DNA from: Owenia fusiformis
Lineage: Eukaryota; Annelida; Polychaeta; Sabellida; Oweniidae
Direction: 5' to 3'
Assembly (NCBI GenBank): GCA_903813345.2
Contig: CAIIXF020000011.1
Span: 15,483,754 to 15,547,753 of the forward strand
DNA: 64,000 nt
This document shows, one piece after another, positions 56,301-59,300 of the stretch; within the stretch, counting starts at the first letter, position 1, and each line of letters begins with the position of its first letter. The position numbers and the translations under genes were made by a program. Under the pieces are notes generated by a model, which saw only the letters and a list, made by a program, of their open reading frames with translations, ran no database searches and was not told the DNA's origin.

Positions 56301-59300
56301 CCATTCAAACAGTCTGGTCGATGAGATTTCAGGCAATACATCACAGTCCACCACTTTATGAGCTACAGGTTATCCTAATGATGTAAACAGACAAAGTTCA
56401 ACACAAATACATGTATGGTTGTAGAGGATAGAATGAAATGTCTTTTATATACATGTCATTCACATAATGATGCCATGTGGTATGAAATGGGTCAAAAAGC
56501 TTGCATGGTTAAGCAAAGCAGAGCAGAATGAAACTGAGTTAAGAGTAACCAAGGAAATGGAAGGTTTTGACTCTACAAAGACATACTATATGTCTGTATG
56601 TTCTATGCAAATTTTTTTGTAGAGGGTTTTAAGCTGAAAAGCTGTTGAAAGGATGAATAAGTCATCAAGGTCACTTCTGCTTTAAAATTGAGAATATATC
56701 CTTACTGACCCATTTCAACATGACTATGAGGTGGAGAACTGACAAACATGATGATTATGAAATGACAGGGGCCAGTTATGCAAAAACTTCTGAGCAAGCG
56801 TGTGATTGCAATAGCTCACCATGTGAGCTCATAAAAATCTCACAAAAACTGACCCCTGTATTTATATATCTCTTATGGAATGTATACATAGAAGATGTGT
56901 CTCAAGACAAGATGTGTCACAGACATGATGATTTTGAAACGACACCAGGGGCCAGTTTTTTGAAAACTCCAGACTAAAGTTTTCAAAAATACTGACCTCT
57001 GCATTTAGATATCTCTTATGTAATGTTATACATTAATTGTATACATACAAGATGCGTCTCAAGTTCGCACACTTTTTCCTGCCGCAAGGCTAAGTAGCAG
57101 TAGACCCTCACCACTTGGTCTGAACTACCAGTTGCCAGGAATATGCCGCCTGAATAAACAACTCACATCAATAGACTCGGTAAAAGCATTACATTTGGTT
57201 AACCATATATGGGAAGTGGGTGTGTCATAAATATTTCTAGTCTAATGACCTGGTCATGAACCTCAGGGCAGGTTTTGTAAAAATTAGCGGGTAGTTCTCA
57301 TAATGAAGATCTCGATGACAATAAATTTATAATAAAAAAGAGTGATTGCAATACAAGCCAAAGTCAATATCATTGTATTTTACATATACCATGTCATTAT
57401 AAATAAGATTGTGGTGAAATTTTACCAAACATTGACCTATAGACCTCATGCTTATGTCACACCCTGTATTAAGCACATTTATGAAAGTATCAATATTGTA
57501 TAACTTAATGGTGATCTGAATTTTCATTTCAATACTTTGGAAAGACACTTATGACCACCATCAAGTTAAGAAAAGCAGTAATTTGATCGTAGATCATGTT
57601 GCATCGATTAATCTGAAATTAGAAATTAGGAATATTAATCATTATTCAAGCCTACACTTCACAATAAGTCAAACAGACAAAGCTGTTACAGCATGGCCAT
57701 GTACATATTAGCACGTTTGCCCAGTTCTGTCACTTGGACCTGTCATCACTAGACCTTGGAGAATCAACAGTATCAGTATTTTTTAGAGATAGCAGTCAAT
57801 AACCTATTTTCTCCAATAGGAGATCAAATCTTTTTTCCACACAGCTGTGTTTTAAACCACCAGAATAGAAAACGTTCTTTTGTACACAAGCAAAGCCAAT
57901 TAACAATTTCTGTGATATGTTTAGGCCTCCAAAATCTAATGATACAATGCCATTGGTGGCAAAACTATGAAAGAAATTGTTTTAAGATTACTTTTTTCAA
58001 AGATGTTTGTCATATTTTGCCACCTGATGGAATTCCCTTATTTGGAAGCTATCTTGATAAAGCACCATGGCAACATCAACAACTTTGTCAATTCCGTGAC
58101 TGAAATCAAGATTTATCCCAAATCCCAACAATTTCAAGGCCCCAAGTTACTGCAAATGTCAAAATGATTATTTCTATGTGAATACCTGCTTTCAATATCA
58201 TGGTAAAATATTTTTCTAAAGATATCATTTTGACATGATTTCAATCAGTTTGGCCCATCACATATTAAATCACATGCAATCCAAAAATTAATACAGAAAA
58301 CCAGTAAAAGATGGCTCTGATGCTCAGGGTCACCCGGGGTACCTACACTATGGGACTCCAGTTCACTAACTTTCTCTGGTTGGGGACCAATGAAATCGTA
58401 GATACGGATCACATGATCTGAGCTTCCAGTTGCTAGGAAATAACCTCCTGTAAACAGATATTATAGTTCGACTGTTTCTGAAAATGTCTGCATCAGTCCA
58501 ATGGCCTGTCTGCCAAAATGGTCTAACAGATCTTGGAGTTAATGCTAAAATATCTCACATTGAAAAATATAATAAACAGATTCAAAACAACAACATTAAG
58601 TATAAAACTGAGAAAATAGTATAAATTTTTTTTGATATGATAGACCATCAACAAACTTAAACATTTTATAGAAAAAATTACTATAAACTCAAAACTAAAC
58701 AGTGTTTGCACTCAAAAATATATAATCAATTTAAAATATAAACTTTTTTAGAATCACAAATTGTAAGTGTCTTTTCCGATTTCTTTTTACATTTAATTAA
58801 CTTGATATATAAAACTGTCAATAATTGAAATATGATTTTTGTTTATCTATGACAGTATTGTTCACAATTCAACTATAAACTTGTGGAAACTATATTATTA
58901 AACAACTTTTTCATATGAAGAGAAGAGCTTACCTGGACTGAACGATGAGCATAACATTTGAGCACCTGCCCTTGACCTTTCTATAAACTTGATGGGCTTG
59001 TGGCTGAAATAATGGAAATATGGTTACAATCTGTAATGTAAAACAAGTTCGAAATTACAAAAAATTAAAGATAACAGATTTGTACTAAACAGAAATCAGC
59101 CAATAACTAGAGACTTACAGAAGTCTACTGAAATGCAAATTGTGCAGATGAGGTTCTAAGGTAAATGTCAGTACAGAAATATCCAGTATTATATGAAAGT
59201 AAATTTGTTAAGTGATTATCAAGGAATTTCTAACACTTCTGGTCTGCTTATTCGTTATATAAACTAGTTAACTGAAATCCAAATTAATCTTCTGCCTACT

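Follow-up and report, generated by a model that had tools for sequence, protein, structure and literature searches.

The question raised by this locus is whether, in a BRWD/PHIP-type gene of Owenia fusiformis, one blade of the WD40 propeller can be encoded by either of two alternative exons. The window, by which we mean the whole stretch of 64,000 nucleotides that was analysed, holds two similar exons, 6a and 6b, between exons 5 and 7 of this gene, and an earlier note had read them as a mutually exclusive pair acting as a switch between two propeller surfaces of a histone reader. Here we consider whether the two exons are a real duplicate pair, whether 6b has been kept by selection on its protein sequence, how the two may be used in transcripts, and what an exchange of one for the other would mean for the propeller.

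The gene and its two copies of exon 6

The gene lies on the minus strand between 64000 and 42000 of the window, which is placed on contig C11 of the 498-Mb assembly (525 contigs) used for all genome searches. WD40 repeats are followed by two bromodomains on the same strand, and this combination marks the gene as BRWD/PHIP type. Exons 2-8, joined together with the start of the next open reading frame (ORF), gave an N-terminal match of seven WD40 stretches (PF00400, E 7.7e-53), and the exons between these and the two downstream bromodomains are mapped in part. A single BRWD-type locus was observed in the assembly. Exons 2-8 were read by hand from their splice sites, giving eight mapped exons (2, 3, 4, 5, 6a, 6b, 7 and 8; Table 1); the exon numbers follow the earlier note, and the 5' end of the gene lies outside the mapped part. 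Beyond this genome, a BRWD propeller was not among the best 60 of 665 PDB matches, five pattern matches in viral contigs included no relative, and bacterial and archaeal genomes held generic WD40 proteins only (132 relatives, the 79 listed loci having 33-48% identity).

Table 1. Mapped exons, bromodomains and associated features of the BRWD/PHIP-type gene (positions in the window)
Feature	Position	Strand	Details
Exon 2, propeller	62073-61913	-	
Exon 3, propeller	61494-61273	-	
Exon 4, propeller	59593-59493	-	
Exon 5, upstream partner	58933-59003	-	71 bp; donor CAG/GTAAGC
Exon 6a	58347-58447	-	101 bp; acceptor ...TTTACAG, donor AGT/GTAGGT
Intron between 6a and 6b	57150-58346	-	1197 nt
Exon 6b	57049-57149	-	101 bp; acceptor ...TTATTCAG, donor CTT/GTATGT
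6b donor region and the strong intronic hairpin directly after it	56930-57060	-	fold -43.2 kcal/mol, z -6.7
Exon 7, downstream partner, next blade	55232-55371	-	140 bp
Exon 8, further propeller	54093-54246	-	154 bp
Bromodomain, begun in ORF	47384-47088	-	PF00439, E 3.1e-9, profile positions 5-52 of 84
Bromodomain, split over joined ORFs	45762-45565 + 45239-45042	-	PF00439, E 1.8e-18

The two exons are as they had first been described, with lengths of 101 and 101, equal phase, AG acceptors and GT donors, at exactly the positions and on the strand claimed. The spacing, given as about 1.2 kb, corresponds to the 1197-nt intron, and the four junctions that had been named, which use the end of exon 5 at 58933 and the start of exon 7 at 55371, are right. 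The codon that takes in the first G of exon 6a is common to exons 5 and 6a. Between 6a and 6b, 62/101 nucleotides and 19/33 whole-codon residues agree. A protein search of the whole genome (498 Mb) with the 34-residue exon returned two matches only, namely 6a itself and 6b, the latter with an E-value of 5.7e-6, 61% identity and no stop (3 candidates, 3 scored). As the exon has no match anywhere else in the genome, 6b does not represent a chance similarity. That 6a and 6b are a real feature is near certain.

A comparison of each mapped exon's peptide (eight in all) with the window gave a mutual match for 6a and 6b only (E 7e-11); the exon 3 peptide also matched WD40 stretches at 34-35 kb, and the exon 7 peptide had one weak match at 44 kb (E 0.016). 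The protein-level self-comparison of 64000-42000 yielded 29 merged rows with the two minisatellites left out, and in no row other than 6a/6b (41 codons, 54%) are two mapped exons paired; because many E-values appear as 0.0, short matches included, the rows are not ranked by them. Two weak self-matches, both in long ORFs further down the gene, pair 50384-50247 with 43202-43065 (46 codons, 26%) and 52539-52459 with 52183-52103 (27 codons, 33%), and are perhaps compositional. A 98-residue query spanning exons 5-7 found seven matches in the whole genome (44 candidates, 44 scored), corresponding to exon 7, 6a, 6b and the exon-5 region, together with three at two other loci with 28-34% identity. A retrocopy with a spliced junction was rejected, because no contiguous spliced copy was present among these seven matches.

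Blade structure and divergence of 6a and 6b

The strands of a WD40 blade follow a usual order, and in a propeller the bottom face carries the c-d loops. By this order, we take exon 6 to encode three strands (b, c and d) with the loop between c and d, and the beginning of the d-a loop. Between 6a and 6b, 9/10 residues are retained in strand b, 6/7 in strand d, 4/9 in the b-c turn together with strand c, 1/3 directly past strand d, and 0/5 in the c-d loop. The loop of 6a has two prolines and one glycine, all of which are absent from 6b. The difference is thus concentrated in one c-d loop and does not extend over the whole surface of the propeller. The full isoform has seven WD40 stretches with 6b too, scoring 168 bits with 6b and 175.1 bits with 6a. 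When exons 6 and 7 were scored alone, 6b gave one WD40 stretch (52.6 bits) and 6a two (59.6 bits), and the match to PF24814 was 65.1 bits with 6a versus 36.2 bits with 6b. The blade encoded by 6b may be specialised, or it may be weakened.

Differences between 6a and 6b number 10, 8 and 20 of 33 at codon positions 1, 2 and 3, respectively. Synonymous divergence is saturated (17.5/22.5 sites, pS 0.78) and nonsynonymous divergence is lower (20.5/76.5 sites, pN 0.27), giving a pN/pS of 0.34, with a codon bootstrap range of 0.20-0.54 and a Fisher P of 1.3e-5 on rounded counts. Saturation of this kind far exceeds allelic difference, and neither a third copy nor a second BRWD-type locus was seen in the assembly. 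It is therefore very improbable that 6b is an assembly or haplotype artefact brought in from a misplaced paralogue or allele, and nothing was found in favour of such an origin. Outside the exon, the similarity between the copies is down to background, except for some 20 nt at the acceptor; since it fades out no further than about 20 nt from the edges of the exon, the intron sequence has turned over while the exon has not.

Under a simple null in which 38 random changes were placed on 6a, the frame remained open in 31-41% of runs and an identity of 19/33 was reached in at most 2 in 10,000, though this null is too easily beaten because 6a is itself constrained. Under a fairer null, 6a changed only synonymously and 6b neutrally over equal time (8 times tried per kappa, 1500 runs), and an open frame together with the observed divergence arose in at most 0.017 of runs at kappa 2.5 and 0.004 at kappa 1, splice sites being uncounted. 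The rarity of this outcome suggests that selection on the protein sequence has probably acted on 6b for most of the time since it arose. The divergence figures may also be compatible with purifying selection followed by a recent death of 6b. As a relic, formerly used and now dead or dying with its sites and frame still unlost, 6b would be expected to look as it does in two respects, namely the lower WD40 score of its blade and the pyrimidine content of its acceptor, the lowest of the eight. Neutrality since the duplication is nevertheless opposed by both nulls, the simulated P being bounded by the 0.017 given above, and we consider a relic rather unlikely.

Reading frame, splice sites and intron sequences

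When the exons were joined in silico, the frames with 6a alone and with 6b alone were each open to the end of exon 8. Inclusion of 6a and 6b together led to a stop inside 6b, and omission of both led to a stop at the start of exon 7, in agreement with the earlier claim that either combination breaks the frame. Both premature stops lie more than 100 nt upstream of the exon 7-8 junction. Stops this far before an exon junction make a transcript an expected target of nonsense-mediated decay. Since 101 cannot be divided evenly by 3, a transcript would stop early if it had both exons or neither, and the frame would thus enforce the use of one and only one of them at the protein level. The locus accordingly has the sequence features of a mutually exclusive pair, in that homologous exons of equal phase with intact sites lie next to each other and single inclusion stays in frame. 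We infer from these features that 6b is used in mRNA, that its use excludes that of 6a, and that the wrong products are removed. Taken together, 6a and 6b are likely to be functional and mutually exclusive, with one of them in each transcript.

The early stops also bear on a poison exon, that is, a 6b that is real but mainly unproductive, being added beside 6a or rarely used, so that the frame shift and decay lower the amount of BRWD protein. Such a role would suit both the stop that 6a and 6b together produce inside 6b and the weak acceptor and donor of 6b. However, a poison exon requires no conserved in-frame protein, whereas 6b keeps 19 of the 33 residues and an open frame at the pN/pS given above; we regard this explanation as unlikely and prefer mutually exclusive use.

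Both 6a and 6b have AG/GT splice sites, and the donors and acceptors of both are on the weak side. The donors match the consensus at 5 (6a) and 6 (6b) of nine positions, the corresponding numbers for exons 2, 3, 4, 5, 7 and 8 being 5, 7, 8, 8, 7 and 7. The acceptor pyrimidine contents of 6a (0.59) and 6b (0.53) are the two lowest of the eight, and the 6b acceptor has an additional AG at -14. Weak competing sites would fit a regulated pair, and would equally fit a dying exon.

Several mechanisms by which one exon might exclude the other were considered. Steric exclusion was rejected, because the intron between 6a and 6b is too long at 1197 nt. In a scan for docking and selector sequences, which covered three intron pairs in 40-nt windows, the best duplex between I6 and I7 (57482-57443 with 56936-56897) reached -32.5 kcal/mol, with 1/80 shuffles as good and three pairs tried, and the pairings of I5 with I6 and of I5 with I7 were inside the range of 15 shuffles. 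Docking/selector pairing of the introns is thus unconvincing, and the duplex between I6 and I7 may serve as a lead only.

The hairpin just past the 6b donor is a very stable imperfect palindrome (0/200 shuffles as stable). A scan of 55000-59100 in 64 windows had its lowest two z-scores, -6.4 and -6.2, in the windows that start at 56950 and 56755, and the fold of the 6b donor region had a z-score of -6.7 or -5.3 in two measurements versus a range of -1.1 to +0.3 among the remaining seven donors. On average, the donor is unpaired with a probability of 0.22 in 6b, 0.23 in exon 3 and 0.18 in exon 4; because the value for 6b is near those of exons 3 and 4, we do not claim that the hairpin occludes the 6b donor. 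At 56735-56935, 157 nt downstream, the last 15 nt of exon 6b recur together with the donor and the following intron as a diverged direct repeat, which agrees at 25/32 nt in the stretch shown at the donor and at 49/59 nt in the best block of the intron, with the donor GT replaced by CT. This copy holds a short dispersed repeat with at least 41 matches genome-wide (40/290 candidates scored), and the hairpin may thus be repeat debris.

The intron between 6a and 6b has a TGCATG at 58278, 69 nt past the 6a donor, which we take to be an RBFOX-type motif. Six splicing-factor patterns were counted in three introns, giving 18 cells. Four of these were above expectation, namely TGCATG in I6 (1, expected 0.33), GCATG in I6 (2, expected 0.82), TGTTTGT in I7 (2, expected 0.38) and a pyrimidine motif in I5 (1, expected 0.40). 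We make no regulatory claim from this motif excess.

Known systems and a possible role of the pair

Tandem duplications have given rise to mutually exclusive exons (MXEs) in human genes, and these are, like 6a and 6b, neighbouring homologous exons of equal length and phase with intact sites (PMC5740500, PMC9741552). As described there, the human catalogue has RNA support, whereas 6a and 6b are known here from sequence alone. Exons of a length not divisible by three occur in 377 of 629 human MXE clusters (60%), and the RNA criteria applied to MXEs are the presence of bridging reads and the absence of productive joining reads (PMC5740500). The terms PHIP, BRWD and WD40 are absent from the main text of both papers. 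Exons 5a and 5b of CORO1D likewise form a two-exon mutually exclusive cluster in the conserved domain of a WD40-repeat protein, although CORO1D, as presented in that source, is a tetrapod coronin and neither a CUL4 adaptor nor a chromatin protein (PMC3203266). Exons 6a and 6e of coq-2 in Caenorhabditis elegans, with annelid and mollusc counterparts, are an invertebrate pair of equal length as in the present gene, and their exchange is reported to remodel the protein core and switch function (PMC7434440). Unlike the pair described here, for which the genome sequence is the source, that pair belongs to an enzyme and is backed by RNA-seq and exon removal (PMC7434440). A duplicated or mutually exclusive exon in a PHIP/BRWD propeller was not described among the matches listed in a search of titles and abstract openings of the open-licence literature. 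The pair would thus be a known kind of switch, placed in a gene family for which we found no described example in that literature.

As in the present gene, WD40 repeats and bromodomains are combined in one gene in the BRWD1/BRWD3/PHIP family (PMC5172248, PMC10523488, PMC4899857). The CUL4-DDB1 ligase has WD40-type adaptors (DCAFs), and BRWD3 and PHIP are counted among them (PMC10523488, PMC4899857). BRWD3 is described as a CUL4-DDB1 substrate-specificity factor whose cryptic Tudor domain binds H3K4 methylation, the bromodomains of a BRWD3 homologue bind acetylated histones, and BRWD/PHIP proteins are considered to connect histone marks with ubiquitin-ligase activity (PMC10523488). The earlier note had spoken of propeller surfaces of a histone reader, but this family binds histone marks through bromodomains and a cryptic Tudor domain (PMC10523488). 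What stands of its proposal, as the best reading of the sequence, is that the two propeller exons of this BRWD/PHIP-type gene are mutually exclusive, and its wording of histone reader surfaces has to be corrected. By analogy with BRWD3 and PHIP, the propeller would be the adaptor part of the protein, and it probably serves the CUL4-DDB1 ligase rather than the reading of histone marks. Since histone marks are bound in this family by the cryptic Tudor domain and the bromodomains, a switch in the propeller would be likelier to alter ligase partners or substrates than mark reading.

Considering these results, we suggest that exon 6 of the BRWD/PHIP gene was tandemly duplicated long ago and that both copies have been kept as alternatives. 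Each copy would provide three strands (b, c and d) of one WD40 blade together with its c-d loop. The 6a version is the more canonical, and 6b retains the strand core while having a different c-d loop and a different end of strand c. Transcripts carrying both exons or neither would contain an early stop and would be removed by nonsense-mediated decay. The swapped loop may in turn change what the propeller binds as a CUL4-DDB1 adaptor. In its widest form, which we put forward tentatively and regard as doubtful, the gene would yield a pair of CUL4-DDB1 adaptor propellers, distinguished mainly by one bottom-face loop and chosen by tissue or stage, wiring one histone-reading body to different ligase partners or substrates, and the pair would be ancient and present across a large invertebrate clade. 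A natural exchange of one loop kept by selection would indicate a functional contact in the BRWD propeller, and 6a and 6b would be a natural variant pair for binding assays.

Other features lie within or near the gene. A minisatellite at 59625-61011, in the intron before exon 4, has a period of 87 and 16 copies with 95% matches, and another at 62089-63046, which ends 15 nt before exon 2, has a period of 50 and 19 copies, also with 95% matches. Elsewhere in the window, WD40 repeats of another gene occur at 34054-34299 on the plus strand (PF00400, E 6.4e-16), and a sulfotransferase-like ORF of 349 residues occupies 37400-38446 on the minus strand (PF00685, E 7e-12). A UDP-glucuronosyltransferase ORF runs uninterrupted for 533 residues at 11665-13263 on the plus strand (PF00201, E 2.2e-89).
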